DNA of 64,000 bases from Ectocarpus siliculosus. Lineage: Eukaryota > Sar > Phaeophyceae > Ectocarpales > Ectocarpaceae. Shown here in pieces: positions 671 to 64,000 of the stretch (positions within the stretch are counted from its first letter, which is position 1; each line of letters begins with the position of its first letter). Both the position numbers and the translations under genes were made by a program. The notes below the pieces were generated by a model that did not search any database, had not been told where the DNA came from, and worked only from the letters and a program-made list of their open reading frames with translations. The stretch is taken from NCBI GenBank assembly GCA_000310025.1, contig FN648469.1, forward strand, positions 71,600 through 135,599. Reading direction: 5' to 3'.

Positions 671-1063
671 AGAAACAAGTCAGGGTCCCCACCAACAATA
701 ATAGTTCATCTGCTAGCAGAGGTGCAGGCACACTTTGGTTCGACCAGGATCGTTAAAAAGTGTTATTTTTCGTTCTCTGCTCAGTTACGTCTAACATCTA
801 TCTGTGTACATTCCCAAGCTCGGTAGAGTTTGGTCTCTATCGACCAAAATTCACTCTCTCTGTCCCTGTCATTTTCGTTCGTAAAGCCCACCCCTTGCCC
901 GACAGGGTCTCAAATGCTGATCTCGAGCCACAGTGGTCAGAGAGACGAGAGTGGGTGTGTTCTCGAGAGTTAGTGCCTTGTCTTCTCTCCGCTCTTCTTT
1001 CTCGCCTTTCGCCGGTGGGGTCCCCACGACAACAACGGCAACCGCTATTGGTTGTTTTTCATC

Positions 1064-2070
1064 TTGCTGACTGAGTAGACTAAAGAGGCTACCCGTGCAT
1101 CCGGCTGCTGTATGGGAGACGATGGGTGCTGCCAGGGAATGGGCAGGACCATGATGCTTTCTGCAGTGCTCTGTCTATGCTCTCGTCCGCCTCCTTTCCG
1201 AAGCCTGTCGTTCCAGGCTCACTGTCTTCGCGTCGCTCTCTTGGTCTCGCTCTCGTACTTCTTCTATATGATTCCGTTTGTTCATGCTTTGTTTTTTTGG
1301 GGTCCCGCGTCCACCCATCGTTTCGCGGTGTTCATCTGACACGGATGTCAGGGTTCTTGAGATGCGGTAGTTCGCCAGTGGTGGTTATAGGCTGTTGCCC
1401 GGTCTTGTCTGTGGTCATGTTCTTTTAGTACACTTGTCACCACATTGTAGTAGCTCCTGCCTCCTACGGCTAACGCCTATTGCTCGCGTAGCGTTGCACG
1501 CCTCCAACGGCAAGCAGAATAGAGTATGCGAATCATGAAGTTGCGTTGACGTCATTCATGATGTGGGTTGACGTTTGTTTTGACGACAAAAATGAATGCA
1601 AGTTCGGCCGGACGTGTTTGTTTTGCCGAGTGAGAGGGACTGTTGTACCGGTCCACGTTTCTGGTGGTCTCCTGCATTCGGGTGTGATACCGCGTACTGG
1701 ACAGATCATCAGCGAGCATCATTAGCGAGGAGATTGTTGACAGCATCAAGTCCCTCGCAACAAAAAAGTGCATGCAGTAGGGGACCTAATAAAGTGGCAT
1801 GTAGAGGCAAGAGAGGAGAATATGCCACTATTCAGGGCAGTGCCATTATTCGATAATCGGGTTCATGCACACGTATGTATGTCGAGATTGTGACAAGAGA
1901 TTTTGATGCCACTATATGTGCAATTCCGGCTATTCAAGTTGCCACTACGTTGGGCCACCTACTGTACGCACGCATGGATGGGCATTCTGAGAAGTGCCCT
2001 CTCTCGCCGTTCAGGGCCGGTCGCGGCTGTTCTTTTCGGGAGCGCTCGGGCGACATGTGTATCAGACCCT
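1064..2070. repeat. diverged tandem duplication, copy 2
   Basis: This is the second copy of the unit at 35-670, in the same orientation and longer because of extra sequence at about 1,150-1,430 and 1,780-1,960. The anchors are those listed for copy 1. Short frames here are interrupted and unlike any family I know. From 2,070 to about 2,400 I see no feature. Confidence 0.6.
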
Positions 2071-2399
2071 CTGGCCGAACATGCTAGCTAGTTTGTCGTG
2101 CGTCCACAGGACAACTTGTGTCTAGGCTCGGTGTTCGTTAGGGTTAGCTTCTTCGGGTTGGACTTTGTAGGCTCAATATTCTGTGGGTATGCATCGCTCG
2201 TTACAGTATCTTTCCGTTTGCGTCAGTTGCAGACTGCGGGGCCCCGCCCGTGACGCGTGACTCTCCGTTCCTTTCTCAAGTGGAACGTGTGTTGTTGTTT
2301 TCCTTCGTTGGTGAGTAGGATGAGCCCGGCATGACGCAAGAAAGGAAAAAAAGGAAGCTTGGGACTAGCGTGCCGACGATATTAGTCGGCTTGCTTTTG

Positions 2400-3517
2400 A
2401 AACAATATATGTACTTGCAGGATGGTCGACGTGTCGTGACATCACCCTAAGGTATATACTCCAAGGATTCATTCCGTCGCACTACTTGGAAATAGAGTAG
2501 GTGGAGGTTTTATTTTATTTATTTTTTTGCTTGCGCACGCGGCACACCTTTTCGACGTCAAGCCACATATTCTTCAATTCAAACTCTTGGCAGGGCAGTC
2601 AGAAAACTGTACATTGGTTGCCGCGTATCATCATTACTTTCATCGCCGCTCACCAGGGCGTTAACGTCATCAAGCGAACCTTTGCGGCACTACTCGCGGC
2701 GTAGATATGTCCGCCATTCTTTTCCGGTGTTGGTTGGGTTTTTCTTCTGCATGTTTTTATCGGATCCTGCAGCCTCAACGCCGTTATCGGATGGTTGTTA
2801 CAGTAAATACAGAGCATCTCCACAATATAATCTCTTTTTGGTCAAGCCTTCATCATCTTCACATACAGGTACCCGTGCGTTCTCACCACATATTACGTGG
2901 TGCCACGCCTTTCCACTCTCACCCACGCACGGGAACAAATTCTCATGAGGGTTCCAACTTCTTCGCCGTCTTCATTTTTTCTCCCTTTTCACCGTTCGTT
3001 GTCGATTACTTTCGCATGCGGTTCTAGCCCTCGCGACCGCTGGGGGCGCTGGGGCCGTGCAGTACCCAGTATTTCTTACTTTAGTATGGGAAAATATAAT
3101 AAGTCGTCGCTCGATTTTGCACCAGACACCGCAACCGAATGATAAAAGGCCGACGCGCGTCACAAATGATATGACAGCACGGAGCATAGACGCGCAGCAC
3201 GCGTCAGCCGTACTTGTAGACCTACCGCAAGCCATTAAAGGGTGGCCCAGCTTTGGTAAATTGTAGCGCGCATGTATCTACAACAAGCTGTTTTACGCTG
3301 CATGCAGCAGCACGCACTGCAATAGCAGTACACCTGTCAATCAAGCACAGATAAAGGCCGACACACGTCGCAACTGGTTGACAGCATAGAATAGACGCGC
3401 AGCACGGGTCGGCCGTACTTGCAGACCTACCGCAAGTCAACTAAGGTTTAAGCGCAGATTTGAACGCACGTGTGTGCATATCGACAGCGGCACCACGCTT
3501 GATACAGCACACAGCAG
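2400..3517 (+). repeat. family T repeat, left part
   Basis: This is the left part of a dispersed repeat whose uninterrupted copy is at 40,411-41,840. Shared blocks in order are GGATGGTCGACGTGTCGTGA (2,422 and 40,431), the segment with GGCCGACGCGCGTC (3,150 and 40,577), GACAGCATAGAATAGACGCG (3,380 and 40,793) and the block with GACAGCGGCACCACGCTTGA (3,483 and 40,883). Similarity stops sharply at 3,517 and resumes at about 10,348, so the unit is split by the block between. About 2,470-3,025 has no match to the other copy and no recognised gene. Confidence 0.7.
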
Positions 3518-3524
3518 GGTAATA

Positions 3525-3542
3525 TACATTATTGTCGATATG
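3525..3542 (+). repeat. left terminal inverted repeat of the palindrome-array block
   Basis: TACATTATTGTCGATATG matches the complement of 10,321-10,339 at 16 of 19 aligned positions, with one gap. It begins 7 bases inside the probable target duplication. Confidence 0.5.
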
Positions 3543-3546
3543 GCAC

Positions 3547-4195
3547 ACGCTTCCATGGAAGTGGATTGCTACTTCCATGGAAGTATATTGTTATTTGCAT
3601 GGAAGCCCATGGAAGCTTCCCCCGCTTCCATGGAAGCTCCATCTACTTTCATGGAAGGTCCTTCCATGAAAGCCGCATGGAAGTGGTCGTGCGAATCCGC
3701 CACCGTACTTCCACGCTACTTCCATGGAAGTACCTCGTACTTCCATGGAAGTCGATGGAGCTTCCATGGAATCAGCGGTGGTAGCTTACATGGAAGTCTC
3801 GCCTGAAACTTCCACGGAAGTCCGGCCATCGATCCTATACGAGAATCTGGCATTAACTTCCACGGAAGTATATTTACTTCCATGCAAATTACTTCCATGG
3901 AAGTAAACGGAACGATTGGGCAGCGACTTCCATGGAAGAGAATCAACTTCCATGGAAGCGTTCGTCTCGATTCCCACGCAACTTCCATGGAACTTTGTCA
4001 ACTTCCACGGAAGACATTTCTTGCACTGCCATGGAAGTCATTGAATTTGCCAGAGGTCAACTTCCGTGGAATCCAGCGACTTCCATGGAAGCCATTATTC
4101 GAACTTCCGTGGAAGTGTTCGATGGCGAGCAAAGGTCGTCTTCCATTAACTTCCATGGAAGCTGGCCAAGAACATATTGCCCCATGGAACAAGAG
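3547..4195. repeat. left array of the ACTTCCATGGAAGT palindrome
   Basis: About 27 copies of a 12-14-bp perfect or near-perfect palindrome centred on CCATGG are scattered at irregular 15-40-bp spacing, with unrelated sequence between them. The spacers differ, so this is not an ordinary satellite. Most non-consensus sites change only the central CATG, to CACG or CGTG (for example near 3,810, 3,860, 4,001, 4,062 and 4,102), which stays close to dyad symmetry. Long frames crossing the array only read the motif repeatedly (TSMEV, FHGS, LPWK) and are not genes. Confidence 0.9.
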
Positions 4196-4304
4196 GCAAA
4201 CATAACAAGTCACAAGACGCGCATGCCACGCTGCTGTCATGAAGGATGAAGGGGCACACAGAGGAGACAATATTACTGGATAGAAATTATGACCACATGC
4301 ATTG

Positions 4305-4600
4305 ATGATGAGGAGCCGCGGAGCGCGAAGCGTGCCATTTTTCCCTTCACGCTCAAGGAGGGAAGAAAAGGCTTTAAATATCGGGCTCTTTCAACCATCG
4401 CGCTGTAGAGTGCCCCTTCCGCGTTAAAAAAAACGTGAATGAATGGTATGTCAAAATATTTCCGCCTGTGGTGTTGAATGACAAGATAATAACGAGGTCT
4501 ATAGAGCACCGATTTACGATCTGCTGGGTTGTAACGAAAGAACGAAGCTAATTAGGGCACTGTTTGATAACAGATGGCCGTGGGTCTGTACCCATATTCA
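4305..4600. repeat. dispersed repeat shared with 18,475-18,750
   Basis: Roughly 75 percent similar by eye to 18,475-18,750. Shared anchors are CCGCGGAG, ATATCGG, a GCACCGATT segment and CAGATGGCCGTG, in the same order and orientation. It lies immediately inside the left palindrome array. No coding function is seen. Confidence 0.45.
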
Positions 4601-5019
4601 TCGAATTTATTGCCCTCGTCCCCGGGAGTTGGACGAGAGGTAAAGGAACACAAATAAGGCGGAGATCGCCTACACACACACACGAAGCGAAGAAGCGAGC
4701 ATTGATCCGTGTGGAGGAAGCGAAAGGCAAGGGAGTTATTTCGTGGTTGACAATAACAGCAGAACGCCTACAACTGCAAGAGCAGTGTAGCAGCTGTGGT
4801 ACGCTGTGGGTGGCGTGTGTGGCTGAGGCTTGCGTAGAGAAACACAGAATGATTTATTACCTTCACACAGACGCCCAAGCTGTCTTCACCCAACGGTTAC
4901 AGACTTGGCAACGCCTCCACAATAATACTGCATCGAACCCAATGCAGTATAATAGAGCCGTTCTACAAGCACTTCTACAAGCACTTCTAACAGACAACGC
5001 AAGGGTTGTCAGCAGATGA
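4564..5019 (+). CDS. unrecognised open frame
   Basis: This is a 151-residue frame with a basic stretch rich in Arg and Lys at residues 25-60, then a leucine- and glutamine-rich part (LQALLQALL near the end). I recognise no family. It lies just upstream of the nuclease-like fragment at 5,236 inside the putative transposon, so it could be a decayed upstream part of the same protein or a chance frame. The length alone is weak evidence. Confidence 0.15.
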   Translation: MITDGRGSVPIFIEFIALVPGSWTRGKGTQIRRRSPTHTHEAKKRALIRVEEAKGKGVISWLTITAERLQLQEQCSSCGTLWVACVAEACVEKHRMIYYLHTDAQAVFTQRLQTWQRLHNNTASNPMQYNRAVLQALLQALLTDNARVVSR

Positions 5020-5235
5020 AAGAATGCTGCCTGATCTATATCGGGAGTCAATCGGTCGTGTACTGGGGAGTCACGATCGAACAAACTGCGACACAGGCAA
5101 ACTTTGTGGTGCAGGTGCATTGTTATCATGCAAGGACCGCTTGAGCTGAGACCACTCCCTCGTCTGCACCAAGAGCGGCGCCTCAACCTTCCTCCAGAAT
5201 AGGATGGTTCGGGTATTCCTCAAGACACTGCGCGA

Positions 5236-5768
5236 GTGGCAGTGCCCATCGCCGTTGAGGATTCTTCCCCTTTTACCACAGGCATTGGTAGGGGAAACGG
5301 AGTGCAATACAGGATGGATTTTGTAATCTCCCCAGGATTACATGCAGGAGAGAAGGAAGAGGAACTCTGCACCAAGTCCATTCTTATAGACGTAGCAATC
5401 GTCAACCCATCCACAGGTCGAAGCATCGTCAAGTCGATCCACAAGCCAGGATCCGCCCTCGAAGATCGAGTCGTAAGTAAGTCTTATCGCTATTGCGGGA
5501 ACTTTCTACCCGTCTAGATCTACCCTCCTTGCTTGCTGCTTTTTCAACGTATGATGGTCTTGGTGAAGGCGCCAATCGACTCATCGTAGCTATCGCCAAT
5601 CACTTGGCACAGGAAGCTTTTTGCCGGGGGAATTTTGACAACGAAAGAGCCTTAGTTCGCCCGAGTGCTTTTCACACTAACAGGATTCGGAGACGGTTTA
5701 CCTTCGAGCTACAGCTCGTTTACTGTCGATGCGAACTCGCGATGTGTTCAAACGTCATGGGCTACTGA
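5236..5768 (+). pseudogene. restriction-like endonuclease C-terminal fragment of a retroelement polyprotein
   Basis: Two overlapping frames join into one recognisable region with a frameshift near 5,500. The first reads RMDFVISPG, then ILIDVAIVNPSTG, then SALEDRVVSKSYRY. The second continues with LAAFSTYDGLGEGANRLIV and ends in a basic RIRRRF stretch. The order Asp, then hydrophobic-Asp-Val with NP, then Lys near Tyr, followed by an aromatic FSTYGxLG motif, resembles the PD-(D/E)xK-like tail after the reverse transcriptase in some non-LTR retroelements of algae and other eukaryotes. The RT itself is not visible upstream. The assignment is by pattern memory only, and the fragment cannot be functional as it stands. 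Confidence 0.4.
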
Positions 5769-6208
5769 ACGACCAACTTCCACCAGGGCCAATCGGTTGG
5801 GATCTCTGCGACAAAGATAGTAATGAGTGTAATACTTTTGGGAGTAACGTAGACGAAGGAAAGGGAAAGGGAAGAAAGGAAGACGAAGACGACGATGGAG
5901 GAGGAGGTCAACATGGAGGAGTGGAAGAGAGCAAAGGGTTAGAGCCAGATGACCTTCCCCAAAACAAAAAACGGAGGGCTAGGGAAGAACTGGCAAGAGA
6001 TTGTTGTCAAAATGAGGATCAGAATGATGGTAGCGACAACAAAGGGGATGATGGTGAAAGAACTCCTAAACGAACTCGAGTACAAGGTAATAGCCTTGGT
6101 AGACGCGTGCAGTTTTCTTCTGTTGCCACTGTTTCTGTCTTTGATCCGAAGGATAGTTTAGCCTCCCCAATGCTGCCCCCTCACGGGGTCCCAGTTCATG
6201 GCAGATAG
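5729..6208 (+). CDS. acidic low-complexity frame, unrecognised
   Basis: This 159-residue frame overlaps the end of the nuclease-like fragment. It has a Lys/Gly stretch, then runs of Asp/Glu and Gly (residues about 45-65), then basic clusters such as KKRRAR and PKRTR that could act as nuclear localisation signals. No fold is recognised. It may be the C-terminal tail of the upstream protein or a chance product of a GA-rich stretch. Confidence 0.2.
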   Translation: MRTRDVFKRHGLLNDQLPPGPIGWDLCDKDSNECNTFGSNVDEGKGKGRKEDEDDDGGGGQHGGVEESKGLEPDDLPQNKKRRAREELARDCCQNEDQNDGSDNKGDDGERTPKRTRVQGNSLGRRVQFSSVATVSVFDPKDSLASPMLPPHGVPVHGR

Positions 6209-6209
6209 A

Positions 6210-8340
6210 AGTGTTTTGTGTTTTCAACCGCACTAAGGCTGACGTATTTTCATTGGTCAGCCGGTTAGCGCGGTCGATGCTAATAGTAAAGACACACACG
6301 AAGCAGGTAGTTGCTCGGTTTACAACCCCGGGAAAGCGGAGGAAGCACTCGGTAAGCTAAACACGCAACACCGTCTCGTGGTGGGTGTCATCGTCATTGC
6401 TGTTGTTGCTTTGGCCTTTGGGGAGAGGGATGATCGGTAATCGAAACCTTTGCGCCTGGCCAAGGGTACACGTGAAAATCATTTCAAGACACATAATCGG
6501 CCTGTCAATCGAAGATCGGGGTCATTTGTGGGGAGGGACAAACTTGGTTGGGACGGCGGGGGCATATACCCATGTATCTGAGCAGCACGCAGCCCACGCA
6601 AGGAAAAATAACTCCGAAATCCATCTTGGGTACAGCAGCCTCCCGCTATCATTCTTATTTGGGACAGACCAACAAGTGCAACCACGTCTCCTCTTCCTCT
6701 AGTCAGGTTTCAGGCACTTCACGCTGACTCCATGCACTCGCAGATGATTGACCAACAGATATTTCACCTTCCGCTCCAAACAAAAACTCAGATTTCAACG
6801 CCTCTCTCTGCATCCACGCCGGGGCGTCGGCGGTTCGGGGTCATCTTTTTGGGGTTAGGGCATATACCCATCCATGTATGCCCGGGTTTTCTGCCGTTGC
6901 CTCGGTGCCTTGGCGTCCCGATCTCGCATGGTGTGCATCACTGCTAGCGCTGCTGGACACCCCGGTCATCTTCGCAATCTTAGGGTTAGAAACCCCAGGG
7001 AGCCGCAATAATAGGCCGCCAGTCGCCCGTGTGGCCTATTGGTCCAGCCAAACGTAACCCTACAACAAGAAGAAGACCAAGGCTACGGGTAGATTATTTG
7101 CGACACTATGTTCCCTGTTGTGCAGTACTATGTAGAGGAGGCGGCAACGTCAAGTTTGCAAGGCAAGTGTGGTTCGATGTGAAAGCTGGTCAATGACCTG
7201 TTCCAACCGAATTTGACGGATACTACTACTCCTACTGTTTTTCGGTTGGCTCGTGGGGTTTTGGAACTGAAGTTCTACGGAAAGGTAGATGTACCGACGT
7301 CCGATTGTTTGTTGTGAAGACAAAACACTTCGTACCCCCGGCCCCCTTCGAAACCATCGAGCAGTCTCCGGCGGCCGAAACGATCCTACAACCGAGGCTT
7401 GTGTGGAGCTTTACATAACACTCTTGCCCCTTTCATCTGGCCGTTTCGAGACATACATACTGAGACGCAATGGAGGCCGGCCACAAACCGCGGTTTAGTA
7501 TGGGCTATAAGATGTACCAGCTGTCGCTACAACGAGCGACAGCTGATAGATGTAACTGTCATCAGACGTGTGCGTCCACGGGCGTAAATAGAGTGCAAAT
7601 ACCACACACCTGATCCTACACCTGCTGTGCGCTGGAGTGAGAGCCGTGGTAACGTAAACTTTCACCCGCCGGCTACCCCCCTCGTGTCCACATCCCGCTT
7701 TCGTGAACATAGTCTACACACTATTGCCGAACACCCTGTTCCCTCTTGTTTTGATCGTTGGTTTTCCAACTCCAAGCGAAACAGCAGGACACAAGTCGGC
7801 TCTCGTCACATAGCGCACCAATCGTCATGGCACCACTTCGAGCGTGTGCTCAATTGCGATATCTCTGGGCGTGATAGCTTTGTTAGGCATGGGTGCCGAG
7901 TGTGGGAAGACCTTCGCGGCGGCGTGGAATCAAAATCGTGTTTTTGGTCCGGGCAATCGGGCCGCATCGCCAGGCGAAATAGCCAAACCGGATTTCACAT
8001 CGCCACGATGCTCTCGCCACATACAGCACCCATGCTCAACACGACCATCACGCCCCTCGACACCACCATGGTGCACACGCTCGAAGCGCGATGGCGATCG
8101 GCGTGCAAGGTTTCGAGAACAAATGTGGTACTGTGTTCATATTGTTGGCAATTGAACGCGGCGGTAAACAAAAATGCGCGACAGCATTACATGGCCTCAT
8201 CACACCACAGAGAGTCTACCGGCATCGACCCCAGATGCTGTCGCCCGCTGCGCGTGTGTGTCACCTGTGATGCGTACGCTGTCTGCTGTGCGTGTGTTGT
8301 CTGCGGTGCGGTGTCGCCCGCAGAGCGTGTGTTCTCTGCT
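6210..8340. other. stretch without recognisable genes
   Basis: This interior part of the putative transposon has only short frames, except a 244-codon frame at 7,627-8,361 (+). That frame begins with GTG rather than ATG, is unlike any family I know, and ends in a cysteine-rich stretch. I do not call it a gene. Isolated TTAGGGTTAG at about 6,981 is too short to mean a telomere. Confidence 0.5.
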
Positions 8341-8399
8341 GCAATCAGCTGGGTACCCTGAAAAAGAAAACAAGCGCATCTGCTGACCCCAGTAGTCTA

Positions 8400-9061
8400 A
8401 GATCAGGTCGTGTACTCAAAAACCTACATTTAGCGAACAGACGTGACAAAATCTTTGGTCTTGATGGGGCCCTATATTGCGGCGAAACCTCAAGCCAGAT
8501 AAGAAATCTCGCTTCGCTCGAATACAACCAGCACATACTACGTGAACCCATGCGTTGGTGATGATCCTCACAGGGACTTTGCCTATGAAGTTGTTGCAGT
8601 CTCAACCACCCTTCTTGTACAGCAACACCTTGATGGTTGCGTCCTTCCACTCTTGGGGGGTCTCTCCTCCGTTCGACAACTCACCGAGGATGGCATGGAG
8701 GAGGTGCTCCACGAGGATGGGTTCCTCGTCGTCGTCGATCTTGAGCTACTCCGCAGGTAGGGAGTCATTGCCATGTGCTTTCCAGTTTTGCAGTCCTTTC
8801 GTTACCCGTTCCACCTCCTTGAGGTCTGGCACTGATCCCAAAACGTGGAGTGGCACCGGTCGCCGGTCGCTGCGTCACTTGCTTGATACTGTCTGGGGTC
8901 AGGGTGGGTGACTTGGGGTTGAGGAGGGGGCCGACGAACCTCGCCCATCGATCGAGGATGTCGTCCTTCCTCCCGAGCAGCACGATGCCATTCTCGTCCG
9001 CAACGGGCTGCTTTCCTCCCGCTTGTTGCCTCCCACTGAGACCCACTGATCTCTTCATTCA
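8400..9061 (-). pseudogene. LINE (non-LTR) reverse transcriptase fragment
   Basis: Read on the minus strand from 9,061, the frame gives DENGIVLLGRKDDILDRWAR, then FVGPLLN. This is the typical linker before the RT palm in LINE polyproteins, where a line such as 'DGxxLTDxxEILDRWxxHFxxLLN' is common. After frame changes it continues with KIDDDEEPILVEHL, ELSNGGETPQEWKDATI and DCNNF, matching the conserved W(K/R)xAxI...KGD...CNNYRGI region. Several frameshifts and stops are present and the catalytic palm core is not reached. It lies inside the putative palindrome-array transposon, so it is either cargo or a later insertion. Confidence 0.6.
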
Positions 9062-9069
9062 GGTGTTTT

Positions 9070-9755
9070 GGTAGAGGCCTGACAGATCGCGGTGATTGAT
9101 TGTCGCTCGTTTCGAGTATTATTGGTCACATATCTGTCCAGGTGGGCATATGTGCCCGTTTTCCCTGCTGCTGCAGCCACTCCCTTACACACTTATTTGA
9201 GGGCCCTTCACGACGTTGTGTTCAAATTTGTCCTTATCACTCGACGCGCTTCCCGCGGAAGACGAGGGCTCGAGAAATAAAGACATGTTCGCGCGCGGTT
9301 TCATACACGATGACAATGACCCAACATTTCACGTCCGTGCGATATTCATAGACCCTATTTTTCGTCCTTGTGGCAACTAACTGTGGTGCTTGATGTTTTA
9401 GACACTCACGCCCGGTTGGCCGTTGGGGGGGAAGAGCAGAGGGTGCCACGCGCACGACAGCTAACAACGTGGGGGCTCCGAACAATCATCCTCTGGTCGT
9501 ACCACCCAACGCATATCTATGTATGTGCAGGGCACCTGAAACAGTCATCATGTCATCATGTCTTTCTACCGCCAGATCCGACTTCACACGAACATGCGAC
9601 ACATGTTTCTTCCTTCTCCAGTAAAAAAACAGGGCCAAGGGGTGGATCCCCCCGCATATGGTAAGGTGGGATAACCTGCCATGGGAACTGAGACACGCGG
9701 ACTACATACAGTCTACGCCTCCTCCCGTCATGCTACCTACTGTACCATGGTTGAC
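9070..9755. other. stretch without recognisable genes
   Basis: Only short frames occur between the LINE remnant and the right palindrome array. Nothing supports a gene, RNA or repeat here. Confidence 0.5.
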
Positions 9756-10315
9756 TTCCACCTGGAGCGGAGAGTAGGACGGGTGATGATGTACTTCCAT
9801 GGAAGTATCGGCATGACATCTGTGAACGTTTCCATGGAAGTCGCTTCTGATTCCTTCCATGGAAGCTTGGGGCGGATGGCGTACTTCCATGGAAGTATCG
9901 CCACGATACATTTGTACAGCTTCCATGGAAGCCGCATATTTTGACTTCCATGGAACCTGGGGTCGGGTGGTGTACTTCCATGGAAGTAGAGCGATGATGC
10001 TTCCATGGAAGCTAGATATTATGCTTCCATGGAAGCTGTCCGATTATGGCCCACTTCCATGGAAGCACGTGGAAGTGGGTGTAATCGACTTCCGTGGAAG
10101 CATTCCAAACTACTTCCATGGAAGCTACCAAACTTCCATGGAAGCTTCAACTTCGATGGAACTTGTTGCTGACCCCCCAGCTACGTGAACTTCCACGGAA
10201 GTCGCCCACACTTCCATGAAAGTCAGTTTCGAGCTTCCATGGAAGTTAAATCAATGAGCTTCCATGGAAGTATGTACTGCTTCCATGGAAGTAAACATCT
10301 ACTTCCATGGTAGCT
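9755..10315. repeat. right array of the ACTTCCATGGAAGT palindrome
   Basis: About 20 copies of the same palindrome as the left array, at 17-38-bp spacing, with unrelated spacers. Variants again fall mainly in the central CATG (CGTG near 10,090, CACG near 10,189). This array ends just before the right inverted repeat at 10,321. Confidence 0.9.
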
Positions 10316-10320
10316 ACACA

Positions 10321-10339
10321 CATATGGACATTAAATGTA
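10321..10339 (-). repeat. right terminal inverted repeat of the palindrome-array block
   Basis: The complement reads TACATTTAATGTCCATATG and pairs with 3,525-3,542. It ends 8 bases before the second ACACAGCAG. Confidence 0.5.
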
Positions 10340-10347
10340 GAGGACTG

Positions 10348-11235
10348 ACACAGCAGCAGTACGCAACAGCGCCGTTTCCGTTTCGCGTAATAATTATCCG
10401 TATGACACGACACTAAGCACAATACTACTGTAGTCTGGTGCGTGTCCCAATCCATGATATCGAAAGCAGAGGGAGTTGCGGGCGCTGTCGTGCGCCCAGC
10501 ATACCAATCTGGAAATTACTGCAGTGCACACGCCCTCACAGTCTTCTTTAGTTTAATTACTTTAGATACATACGTGATTTTGTTGGCTGCAGTGCTCAGT
10601 TTGGAGTAGGTGTCGGGACGACGCGCGCAAGATTGACACGCCCCGAGTACAAGCCTGGGCTGGTTGTTGTTTTTATCCCCCATTTTTCCGCATGTCCATG
10701 TCTACAGCGTTTCTACCCAGAGTTCCCTACGTTGTTCGTTTGTATGTATGTCCATTTGAGATATCCCGCAGTCTTCACTTCTGGGAGTATATGGTTGATA
10801 GGTGTTGTAGTTCATGTACACATACTTCTTTCGGTTCCTTGCCATGGGGGCTACGTTGTTATGCACTCGAAGTGTATTGCAATCGATCTATGTTCTACTG
10901 TATGACTGCACAAAATTTCCTTCTTCCAACAGCAGTACATGTACCTCATTAAGTTGCAATCGTTGCTATCGTCAAAAGCTTGAACGAAATATGTAAATGG
11001 ATCGACCATTGCCGCGCCGAATGAAGGATGTGGATTGGTGACGCGCGTCTTGGCTGTAGGGGACAACAAATGCTTTTGAACACGACATAGTATTTATTAG
11101 TCTGTCCACGAAATGAAATGGTCGAGAGGTGGACCCCAACTACTGTTGTACGACAGTACAACGTGATTGACCGCACATCGACCATAGCCGCGCAGCACAC
11201 GTCGGCCGTTCTCACAGGTCTGCTCAACATCTCTC
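10348..11235 (+). repeat. family T repeat, right part
   Basis: Continues family T after the inserted block. Matches to 40,912-41,840 include CGCGTAATAA(T/C)TATCCG, TTTTTCCGCATGTCCA, TTCGGTTCCTT(G/A)CCATGGGG and CGCAGCACACGTCGGCCG (about 11,190 and 41,806). The order and orientation are the same as in the uninterrupted copy. Confidence 0.75.
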
Positions 11236-40410: not shown

Positions 40411-41840
40411 TAGTACCATATATATTTGCAGGATGGTCGACGTGTCGTGACATATTTCTTACTTTTACAGTAGTATGGGAAAAAAAAACTTTGTAGTTCG
40501 ATTTTTTTTGGCTACACAACAGTATGCACCAGACACCGGAGAAGGTTCAAGCTCAGTCACGCGCAACCGCATGATAAAGGCCGACGCGCGTCGCAAATAA
40601 TTGACAGCACGGAGTATAGACGCGCAGCACGTATAGACCTGCCGCAGGCAAATTAGGGGAAGCGCAGAGCTTTGCTATTATAGCACGTATGTTCCACACA
40701 CACAACACGCTGTTGTACGCAGCAGCATACACATGAACAGATACACACGTTCACTCACACGCAGATAAAGGTCGACACACGTCTCAACTGATTGACAGCA
40801 TAGAATAGACGCGCAGCACGGGTCGGTCGTACTTGCAGACCTACCGCAAGCCAGCTAGCTTTGGATGCACGTGTATGCATATCGACAGCGGCACCACGCT
40901 TGATACAGCACACAGCGGTACGCGACACCAACGTTTTCCTGTTCGCGTAATAACTATCCGCATGACCCGAGACAAAGCACTCTACTGCTGTAGTCTGTTG
41001 CGTGTCCCTTTCCATCACAACGAAAGCAAAAGGAGTTGCGGCCGCTATCGTGCGCGTCCTTACATAGTCTTCTTGAGCTTTTTGTCTGTAGATACGTGAT
41101 TTCGATATGTGTAGCAATGTTGTGGGTATGGAGTAGGCGTGGGAACACCCCGTGTCGATCTCAACTCTCCCCGACTTCAAGGCCAAGCTGAATGCTGTTT
41201 TTTTCATTTTTTCCCTATTTTTCCGCATGTCCACGTCCACAACGTTTGTCCAGAGCTCCGTACGTTGTTCGTTTGTGTGTATGTATGTCCATCTGAAATA
41301 TCCCACAGCCTTCACTACTCGGCGCATATGGTTCATAGGTGTCATGTAGTGTTGTACTTCATGCACAAAAATACTTTTCTTTCGGTTCCTTACCATGGGG
41401 GCTATGCATACGGTGTTGCGTACTCCAAGTATATTGTAATCGCTCTATGCACTGTATTTAGTACTTCTTTTTCGTTTCTCGGGCCACTGTTTCTTTTCTT
41501 TCAACAGCAGTATGTACTTCATCAAGTTGTACTCGTTGCTATGGTCAAAAGCTTGCACGAAAGATATATATATGTAGATGGATCGACTATTGTTATTGCC
41601 GCACCGAAAAATGAAGGATGCGGATTGATTGGTGACGCGCGTCTTGGTTGTATGGGACAACAAATGCTTTGAATACGAAAGATTTTTTCGTGATGATGAT
41701 AGACTTTTAGTCTACTCACGAAATGGAACGGTCGAGAGGTGGCCCCGAACTACTGAACCACAGTGCAACATGTAGTATATGATTGACAGCATCGACCATA
41801 GCCGGGCAGCACACGTCGGCCGTTCTCGCGGACCTGTCAC
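40411..41840 (+). repeat. family T repeat, uninterrupted copy
   Basis: This copy serves as the empty-site reference for the block at 3,518-10,347. The junction GCACACAGCGGTACGCG at about 40,908-40,924 is continuous here. It is bounded on the left by a family P hairpin and on the right by a family H unit. Confidence 0.8.
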
Positions 41841-44109: not shown

Positions 44110-44360
44110 TTTCATGAACTGTTTCACGACAAAAATACCACGGGCATCCATGGAACTTTAGACGAACGTTAGTGAAAAATGACATGGAATTGCAAGGAAT
44201 TCCACCGGCCTTTCATTTCATCAATTTCCATGGCAGTTTCATGGACTTTCATGGAATATTTCATGGATTTCCATGAAATGTTTCATGGACCATGAAACCG
44301 TTCCGTGAACTTCATTGGACTTCCACGGACTTCCGTGATCCGTTTCATTGGAAAAGTACG
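44110..44360. repeat. cluster of TTTCATGGA / TTCCATGGA motifs
   Basis: More than ten copies of a TTTCATGGAN- or TTCCATGAAA-like motif within 250 bp, irregularly spaced. It resembles a decayed relative of the palindrome arrays at 3.5 and 9.8 kb. No inverted repeat or target duplication was found around it. Confidence 0.55.
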
Positions 44361-44484: not shown

Positions 44485-44660
44485 CCTTGTGGGTCTCCCT
44501 CACTTCAACCAAACCGCCAATGGGCACCACGTTGGGCCCATGCGCTGCCCGTGGCTGCTTGGGTGGCTAAGTTTGAGGTTGAAATACCGGCGGTGAACTA
44601 GGTTGAAGTGCCCATGGGCGACCAATGGGTGTCCCGTGGGCGGTTTAGGTTACGTTAGCG
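44485..44660. repeat. small foldback with CCCATGGGC-type motifs
   Basis: CACTTCAACC with AAACCGCCAATGGGCACC on the left and GGTTGAAGTG, then GGTGTCCCGTGGGCGGTTT on the right, are near-complementary. The segment between is rich in CCCATG and CCCGTG. Confidence 0.5.
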
Positions 44661-45104
44661 GTTTGGCAAAACTGCCAGTAGTGTGAGAGATTCCGCGTGG
44701 CCAAGCAACAGATGTCGACACCCCTTCGCCGCGGCTACTCTCAAGGGCTTCCGATAACCAGGATCAGTAGAGCTAACGTACATGCCATCAGCACCGGCAA
44801 TCGAAGCTTGTAGGTGGTGGAGAATGTGCGAGACCGGCGGCTAAAAAATTGTATCTGTTTTATCAGCAGTAGCAGAGGGAGAAAGGGGTTTTGTTTTTGC
44901 TGGTACCGTCTGTTCACATCGATGTGCTTCCATTGCTCCCCTCCCTATCAAGGAATCGGGGCGGCACTCTGGTTCAACACGGATGTCGTGTCAGTGTTTG
45001 GTCCGTTCGGGTGGACAGTGCGTGTATGCATTGTTCCAGGCGTACCTGCGGCTGCTGTGTGCGTTGTGTGCGTCTCTACTGTCCAATATTTGCCACAATC
45101 TCAC

Positions 45105-62530: not shown

Positions 62531-63695
62531 CGGAGATTCCTGAACCATGGATCGGGAATTTCTGGCTGGATCTTTGTTCCCGAATAAATATTCAGAGGGG
62601 TGTTTTGGCCCGATTACAAATTTATTCAGGAAGGATCTTTAGCTTTTTGTACCTCCGCCCGTGACAGAAGGGAGGGACAGCTCGCACGACGGTATCAACC
62701 GCACGGACACCGCTACCACTCGAACAGCTACCACCGTGCAAGCTTGCTAGCCAGCGCGGCTTCTACCTCGGAGGCTGCCCCACCCCTCCGTCCTCCTGCT
62801 TGAGATATATCACAGATGGTGCATCACTCCTCGTCTATGCATTCAACACCCTCTTCTACTACAGCACATCAGCACAGCAAAAAACACCGCAACTCGTCTT
62901 GAAAAACCCAACGGCTCCGCCCATCAGCCGCTCCCTCCAGGTGTTCGCAGCTGGCAATCTCGCTCAGACGCAAATAACGGCAGAGGACGGACACAAAACC
63001 TAGACCCGCACCCCCAGAGCTTTGACACCGCGCACACGCAAGTATTCATATGTAGGTATGCATGGCTTCATGAATCTCTCATCCGGTTATGCATCGATCT
63101 TCTGCTGTTGTCGCTCAAGAATCGGTTGTGGTGTGTTTTTTCTTTCCAAAGGCTCTTCTCCGCTTGGTGACTTCTCCGCTTGCTGACATAAGTATGCATA
63201 CATCATAACCATCGACCGTGAGAGTGCCCTCCTGAAAGGTGCATGGTTAAACTGGGGCATGAGTGGCTAGGGTGTACGTGTCTGGTGTGTGTGCTTTGTG
63301 TTGGCAGCGAGCCGGGGCTGCCTGTTGATGTGTTCATCATCCTGTTCATCATGCATGCATGCGATATTTCAGCCAGCTGCCCAGCTGGAGAGAGAGGGAA
63401 AATAGCATCTCGCTGCGTGGTGTCGCTCTGCCTCTCTCTTGAAACACATCCCAACCACATACGAAGTCTCAACACAGGCGTGCGTATTCTTTCAACATAG
63501 TTTGCTGACAGCAGCGTAGCAGTTATGAAAGTCTCCCGTCTCTCCAAGTTGGCCTCTCTCTCCAACGTACTGTGCTGTATACTGCTGCAGCGCAGTACTT
63601 ATGTGTGGCAGCAAGGTGTGCGCACGGAGTTTCGGATTACACGTCATGTATTGGAATATTAACCTCGGAACGGCCATATACCGTATATGACACAA

Positions 63696-63756
63696 GATAC
63701 CACACCCCGGTGATAACATTTTAGAGTTCAGAATTATTATCACCGGGTGTGGTATC
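63696..63756. repeat. hairpin with 20-bp arms
   Basis: GATACCACACCCCGGTGATAA and TTATCACCGGGTGTGGTATC are complementary apart from one base, around a 20-bp loop. The arm motif GGTGTGGTATC recurs at about 63,765. Confidence 0.85.
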
Positions 63757-63819
63757 CTGTGGGGGGTGTGGTATCTTGGGTACCCCCGGTGATAAAGTGC
63801 AGCTCGCAGGGGCTCCTAT

Positions 63820-64000
63820 GGGGGTGTGATAAACCAGGGGGTGTGATAGCGCGTCCGAACACCCGCAGGGTCTGTTTGGGGGTGTGATAAATGAGGGGGT
63901 GTGATAACAGGGGGTGTGATAGCGCGTCCGGACACCCGCAGGGTCTCTTTGGGGGTGTGATAAATGAGGGGGGGTGATAAAAGGGGGTGTGATAGCACGT
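63820..64000 (+). repeat. GGGGGTGTGATA tandem array, running off the end
   Basis: Units of about 60-75 bp contain GGGGGTGTGATAAA, AGGGGGTGTGATAGCGCGTC and ACACCCGCAGGGTCT. Two full units and a partial third are visible. The array continues past the window. Confidence 0.85.

Follow-up and report, generated by a model that had tools for sequence, protein, structure and literature searches.

Positions 3517 to 10347 of the stretch analysed here were confirmed to represent a copy of a DNA transposon and not a chance arrangement. The stretch, referred to as the window, comprises 64,000 nucleotides of the Ectocarpus siliculosus genome (contig FN648469.1, positions 71,600 to 135,599 of the forward strand). 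The transposon family was named T, with subfamilies T1 and T2, and a sister family was named S; L-numbers designate loci fetched from the genome. Both ends of the element harbor an array of short palindromes. According to the reading favoured here, to which a probability of about 0.6 was attributed, T is a non-autonomous cut-and-paste transposon moved in trans, most likely by a KDZ transposase, and its arrays serve as cooperative binding sites. A DNA transposon had already been proposed at this block by an earlier reading of the window based on the sequence only, and inverted ends, an 8-bp duplication, an empty site and dispersed copies bore this out.

The limits of the window copy (Table 1) were provided by other copies, the homology of which ended at 10347/10348 (L001, L005, L007 and L011) and at 3517 (L005). 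The sequence-only reading had described matching imperfect inverted repeats. Imperfect terminal inverted repeats of about 26 bp were indeed present, but the two ends were distinct and are called A and B. It had also announced a target duplication of 9 bp, which was corrected to 8 bp: the ninth base, a G, can equally be assigned to the left end as its opening base. A continuous relative of the flanks had been noted at 40.9 kb. Both flanks, once joined with a single copy of the duplication, gave one continuous match at positions 40554-41055 of the window, with a single ACACAGC. The paralogue reads ACACAGC-GGTACG at 40910-40922, as against ACACAGC-AGCAGTACG on the right of the occupied site (hand alignment). 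Seven of the eight duplication bases were thus directly backed by the empty site, and a three-base difference adjoined the junction; a length of eight was retained because it was set by the other two-ended copies and not by the empty site of the window.

Table 1. Features of the window discussed in the text (positions are those of the window; a dot stands where no strand is given).
Feature	Position	Strand	Basis
Transposon copy, subfamily T1, 6831 bp	3517-10347	.	Homology stops of other copies; end and duplication analysis
End A: GGGTAATA then core TACATTATTGTCGATATG	3517-3542	+	Other copies with the same layout
End B: CAGTCCTC then core TACATTTAATGTCCATATG (reverse complement)	10321-10347	-	End analysis
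Left target duplication, ACACAGCA	3509-3516	+	8/8 identity to 10348-10355; paralogous empty site
Right target duplication, ACACAGCA	10348-10355	+	8/8 identity to left copy
Paralogous empty site, one ACACAGC	40910-40916	+	Continuous relative of the flanks (40554-41055)
Left array, 23 CTTCCATGGAAG-like palindromes	3550-4161	.	At most 2 mismatches
Right array, 20 CTTCCATGGAAG-like palindromes	9794-10313	.	At most 2 mismatches
Dispersed repeat, variable 5' starts, 3' end common to many copies	4993-6299	+	
Open reading frame, by eye similar to the LINE-like reading frame of L059	8765-9058	-	No Pfam match
Short S element, GGGTCTCC and GAATCTCT ends, CCCATGGG-like motifs	44491-44694	.	No clear target duplication

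The 20 to 27 palindromes that the sequence-only reading placed inside each end agreed with the numbers counted in the two arrays; four further matches to CTTCCATGGAAG with at most two mismatches were found elsewhere in the window. When ACTTCCATGGAAGT was searched with at most one mismatch, all 25 window matches fell within the block, in two clusters, a number far above that of shuffled sequences (mean 0.01, maximum 1). The T palindrome displays ACTT and AAGT at its edges. Its exact form was encountered 272 times in the genome (189 Mb) and its reversed control not once. Fifty of the 272 sites were listed and ten clusters were fetched from these; 183 exact sites fell in the window and the fetched loci, sites in overlaps between loci being counted twice. 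Isolated exact palindromes among the sites listed include those at C2:1010773, C3:603647, C3:4024516, C3:4079400, C4:2537041, C9:3406665 and C11:1468863. Spacing between palindromes peaked at 15, 20-22, 24-25, 30-31 and 35-36; as the copies are related, no claim on helical phase was drawn from it. The sequence-only reading had raised the question of whether arrays elsewhere lack the inverted repeats. At the ten loci fetched solely for their palindrome clusters, a related inverted-repeat end adjoined the array in every case; in L001 the left side consists of N only, and two separate ends are present in L002.

Copies were also collected by a second route, a search by end sequence. Two-ended copies amounted to 21 and ranged from 0.4 to 7.9 kb. 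L005 corresponded to the window element with an internal deletion, and L011 (C16) displayed about 92 % identity from window position 5127 to the right end, without the left part. Both ends and their arrays were kept in short copies, L031, L040 and L041 being 0.4-0.6 kb long. Each end begins eight bases outside a common core (YACAYTATTTGACAAATG in T2, TACATTAYTGTCCATATG in T1), and these outer bases include GGGTAA at end A and CRRTCY at end B. Both tips could be typed in 16 of the 21 copies, all of which combined one A with one B, and the five other copies had one tip that could not be placed. This count is partly due to construction, many pairs having been fetched as facing A and B matches; the window copy, L005, L006, L016 and L031 were among the 16 and were not picked by A/B orientation. 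The 7.4-kb T element at L012 included eleven repeats of about 116 bp (4499-5690), each with a TACACTATTGTACAAATG-like end core and most with a CTTCCATGG motif.

Target duplications in other copies, which the sequence-only reading had put forward as a check, were encountered in part of them. Flanking 8-mers identical in at least seven of eight positions were found without slop in 6 of the 21 two-ended copies and in none of 420 pairs of swapped flanks; they were perfect in five cases (the window, L028+L043, L031, L034 and L038). When up to four bases of slop were allowed per side, 11 of the 21 copies reached this level (eight perfect), against 2 of 420 swapped pairs (one perfect). L035 and L036 represent a single insertion found on two contigs and were both counted in the 21, and L042, which nearly duplicates the insertion at L039, was left out. 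At least two copies, L006 (777-780) and L041 (214-217), displayed an extra ACCC between the 8-bp match and tip B; ACCC is the complement of the GGGT of tip A, as expected at an end-to-end junction. At L013, which was scored as a miss, an 8-bp match, GAGTGAAA, abuts the core while end A is shortened and tip A is gone. The cleavage point may be variable, or tips may have been altered between rounds. A fixed-length 8-bp duplication and an empty site, both features of cut-and-paste transposons, were present.

Family S was first met at L055, a hAT locus, and in copy L024. Its ends display TCTCCCACACT...ACAGTTT followed by CCCATGGG arrays, and this end pattern gave 251 matches in the genome with at most two mismatches (reversed control, 0), 100 of which were listed. 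All seven fetched S loci harbored 4 to 20 CCCATGGG-like sites inside the end, at each locus more than the maximum of 200 letter shuffles (2 to 4), and the T motif was found in none of them. Of the ten T loci fetched for their palindromes, eight lacked exact CCCATGGG; it occurred once in L004 and three times in L009, where the sites come at least partly from an S element that served as insertion target. At L009 (766-850 and 854-1787), the T element lies within the CCCATGGG array of this S element, between flanks CCCATGGG and CCCACGGG with two bases of slop, which makes an S palindrome the probable target of this insertion. L066 holds a full S copy of about 150 bp; its end A reads GGGTCTCC, its end B reads GCAATCTCC, and AGCCTTAC stands on both flanks. 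Tip A begins with GGGT and tip B finishes with ATCTCC or a close variant in both S and T2, and the tips of the two appear related. Their array motifs differ around a common CCATGG centre. Just left of the window S element, a cluster of TTTCATGGA/TTCCATGAAA-like motifs (44145-44330) is possibly a third array motif, around a CATG centre. At L063 (6656-7044), GGTGCTCCATGG is repeated beside a Harbinger-like gene in a CCATGG-centred cluster, and no T-like end was seen there.

According to the favoured reading, the A and B tips would be cut by a transposase acting in trans, most likely of KDZ type with hAT as second choice. This transposase or a partner DNA-binding protein would bind the palindromes cooperatively, as dimers. 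Dimers or paired domains are proposed because the motif is palindromic, and cooperative loading because there are about 20 motifs per end. The arrays would load many molecules on each end and aid the pairing of the two ends; they would also distinguish T from its sister families, and the difference between tips A and B may ensure that a left end is always paired with a right end. Binding of the arrays is inferred. The closest functional precedents are CACTA elements, in which a partner protein binds subterminal motifs particular to each family, and Hermes, for paired binding to a quasi-palindrome. The nested insertion resembling a long interspersed nuclear element (LINE) would be carried along with the element.

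Repeat-rich ends are known from other DNA transposons, such as Galileo and foldback elements or Rehavkus, a group of Mutator-like elements (MULEs). Galileo displays duplications of 7 bp and Rehavkus of 9 bp, about the length found in MuDR and MULEs at large, and the repeats of these elements are not known to be short dyad palindromes. In CACTA elements, TNPA recognises the subterminal repeats, which differ from one family to another in a single species (PMC2613891). With its many short motifs inside both ends, T resembles CACTA / En-Spm in design, not in membership. The latter was rejected, since 3-bp duplications and CACTA tips (PMC2613891) contrast with the 8 bp, GGGTAA and CRRTCY of T. Duplications of hAT elements are usually 8 bp long (PMC12730594), and in Hermes the BED domains contact subterminal repeats with the motif AAGT, binding being cooperative on a quasi-palindrome (PMC10368747). 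T shares this duplication length and its subterminal motifs bear AAGT, whereas in the left end of Hermes only two repeat pairs have been called palindromes (PMC10368747), as compared to about 20 palindromes per end in T. For PIF / Harbinger, duplications of 0-3 bp are given (PMC12730594).

Among KDZ elements, 8-bp duplications occur in Zisupton and in Cryptococcus KDZ1, as in T, and those of KDZ2 and KDZ3 span 4-8 bp; two Kyakuja families display 7-bp duplications and no inverted repeats (PMC12730594, PMC12810828). The inverted repeats of KDZ1-3 extend over 139-241 bp (PMC12730594, PMC12810828), unlike the short imperfect ones of T. In Ectocarpus, 6403 KDZ copies have been reported, along with 128 of hAT and 56 of MuDR, and the giant elements of this alga include non-autonomous families and nested insertions fixed among copies (PMC12477816). 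Nested insertions common to copies and non-autonomy are likewise probable traits of T. Brown-algal transposon families are mostly unclassified, the published Ectocarpus repeat library containing 51 DNA/Unknown and 94 Unknown families (PMC12477816). Palindrome arrays do not figure in the main text of that study. No description of these arrays was found in the literature searched, as far as the portions covered extend, and the family may be catalogued without comment in supplementary libraries.

The sequence-only reading had stated that no known transposase is visible in the block, and the 12 window open reading frames (ORFs) compared with Pfam gave nothing below E 0.9 and no viral domain. Twenty-three ORFs or stretches from L001, L011, L012, L013, L023, L033, L034 and L035 gave one meaningless match (E 0.16) and otherwise nothing. 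Several large copies were considered as autonomous elements and rejected. L012 contained internal tandem repeats, and the six ORFs tested from it, one of which lies largely beyond the element's limits, had no Pfam match. L032 (7.9 kb) consisted of a T copy with a nested copia-like element (by eye). L033 (3.8 kb) and L034 (2.4 kb) accounted for six of the ORFs tested, including the single match at E 0.16. L023/L036 and L024/L035 were complex and nested, and four of their ORFs remained without match. The other ORFs of these loci were inspected by eye. As no transposase was found among the ORFs tested, the T copies were taken as non-autonomous, which they probably are; a decayed or intron-split transposase may nevertheless lie within them.

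Genes for known transposases were also sought in the genome at large, and T ends were listed as far as they matched the end patterns used. MULEs were rejected as movers: of 45 genome matches, five fetched loci displayed no arrays and only single palindrome-like sites, and the duplication of T is 8 bp long. Two MULE matches lay near T elements and outside them, about 8.5 kb beyond L012 and about 11 kb off L003 (C30 and C5). PIF/Harbinger was likewise dismissed on account of the 8-bp duplication. Of 42 matches to a Harbinger-like peptide, which was named by eye and had no Pfam match, only that of L060 had a listed T end less than 10 kb away; a further one (C42) lay about 11 kb away, outside the T element. 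L063, the other fetched Harbinger-like locus, displayed no T array, about half of its sequence being N.

L060 displays, in this order, an end B with its array, a nested pogo-type element and a Harbinger-like fragment. Its genes were rejected as movers, the DDE_1 domain being located in a nested element with ends of its own and the Harbinger-like gene occurring elsewhere without listed T ends. The pogo-type element (735-5068) displays DDE_1 at E 9.5e-20 and, in another ORF, an EsV-1-7 motif at E 9.1e-9; it is bordered by TA, and GGGGGTGTGATA-like repeats of its own lie just within its ends. With its 4.3 kb and its EsV-1-7 motif, it fits TcMar-2_Ec32 of Ectocarpus, which is described as 4.4 kb long and as bearing an EsV-1-7 domain at the N-terminus (PMC12477816). 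Over 187 bp, a region at 63679-63857 of the window shares 78.6 % identity with the end region of this pogo-type element, and a neighbouring tandem GGGGGTGTGATAA array occupies positions 63820-64000.

A hAT-like transposase would move T by the same cut-and-paste mechanism, its BED fingers contacting the ACTT/AAGT halves of the palindromes. The 8-bp duplication, the binding of AAGT and of a quasi-palindrome by Hermes BED domains, and the 20 hAT matches of the genome are consistent with this view. However, none of these 20 was found within 20 kb of the listed T ends, and the six loci fetched lacked T arrays, which led to rejection of these genes. At L055, the hAT domain is followed some 2.4 kb downstream by an S end with its CCCATGGG array, but this S element points away from the gene, and the published number of hAT copies in Ectocarpus is small (128; PMC12477816). 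A hAT mover is therefore considered unlikely. MULE, hAT and Harbinger-like genes displayed no systematic linkage to T ends. KDZ is the leading candidate mover, owing to the length of the duplication and to the published abundance of KDZ in Ectocarpus, and hAT comes second.

Several observations weigh against the KDZ-driven reading of T and its arrays. Two loci displayed unusual combinations of ends. The arrays of L002 belong to two back-to-back B ends, and L002 was rejected as a paired copy for this reason. In C138, two B ends face each other at a distance of 28 kb (L064 near 100, L062 near 7365). A giant element was rejected there, as the nearly identical outer flanks of both B ends point to separate insertions into one repeat; T may have been inserted twice at the same point of this repeat, or the region may have been duplicated in inverted orientation. 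Five ORFs of more than 200 amino acids from 20 kb between these ends gave no Pfam match past the cut-off, the best being at E 0.08. L002 and C138 are also the loci that could favour a viral insert or a segmental duplication, to which end arrays would be unrelated. Such an origin is hardly credible in view of the target duplication and empty site, of dispersed copies with the same boundaries, of the internal deletion in L005 and of the lack of viral domains in the 12 window ORFs.

Further points of this kind concern duplications and the missing mover. No duplication of at least seven of eight bases was found, even with slop, in 10 of the 21 two-ended copies, among which L005 (both ends good), L033 and L039. 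In S, the duplication of L066 is 8 bp long if the G preceding CAATCTCC belongs to the tip, which it precedes in six of eight S ends of that type, and 9 bp otherwise; L070, with both ends present, and the window S element displayed no clear duplication. The S motif CCCATGGG lacks AAGT, which speaks against a hAT mover as well. No transposase was recognised in the subset of ORFs tested from T copies, and none was tied to the ends. Finally, PF18758, the profile for KDZ, gave no match in the genome and likewise none in control genomes. T could also depend on a hitherto undescribed superfamily, confined to brown algae or related lineages. The tested interior ORFs without transposase, the MULE, hAT and Harbinger-like genes without linkage and the empty PF18758 search would fit such a mover; absence judged by PF18758 is nevertheless weak evidence, and KDZ elements are reported to be abundant in Ectocarpus (PMC12477816). 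We regard a new superfamily as doubtful.

The conservation of the arrays adds a last reservation. Between copies, mismatches affected 47 of 1066 palindrome positions versus 115 of 1507 spacer positions, in seven pooled comparisons which overlap and are biased, and palindromes fared slightly worse than spacers in two of the seven. Being barely better conserved than their spacers, the palindromes do not demonstrate selection on the arrays. The arrays could also be a by-product of minisatellite-like amplification near the ends, without any role in transposition, and the short arrays of diverged units reported by Tandem Repeats Finder are in line with this. Against it stand the 12-bp core, which is identical at both ends across subfamilies aligning only in part, and the motif that S displays of its own at this place in seven of seven loci. 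A mere by-product is accordingly deemed improbable, and binding sites for the machinery that moves T are preferred.

T and S might also be viewed as one lineage, with common A/B tips and an 8-bp duplication, in which CCATGG-dyad arrays act as exchangeable labels (CTTCCATGGAAG in T, CCCATGGG in S) read by a coevolving transposon protein. Sister families within one genome would then be moved separately, and the mover would belong to a new superfamily. This proposal is tentative and judged rather unlikely.

The repeat at 4993-6299, in the interior of the window copy, recurred at 35 places elsewhere when 40 out of 2594 candidates were scored, with query starts between 794 and 1416 and many ends near 2100, and in some copies an extra piece, 4690-4753, is directly joined to it. 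Its ORFs gave no Pfam match. It was read as a putative 5'-truncated LINE tail nested in the element, because the 5' ends are scattered while the 3' end is common to many copies. This LINE-like insertion probably moved with the element, as L011 has most of it. The ORF at 8765-9058 is probably a second nested LINE fragment. A 1-kb stretch at 7509-8527, partly self-complementary in its middle, displayed 81-84 % identity to sequences at C10, C491, C52 and C9; an additional nested repeat and a related element are possible readings.

T and S, with related tips and different private arrays, lend themselves as a natural experiment on the way in which transposases tell their own ends from those of related elements. 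The arrays offer a handle for locating the missing autonomous elements and, if they bind protein, the family disperses dense clusters of binding sites across the Ectocarpus genome.

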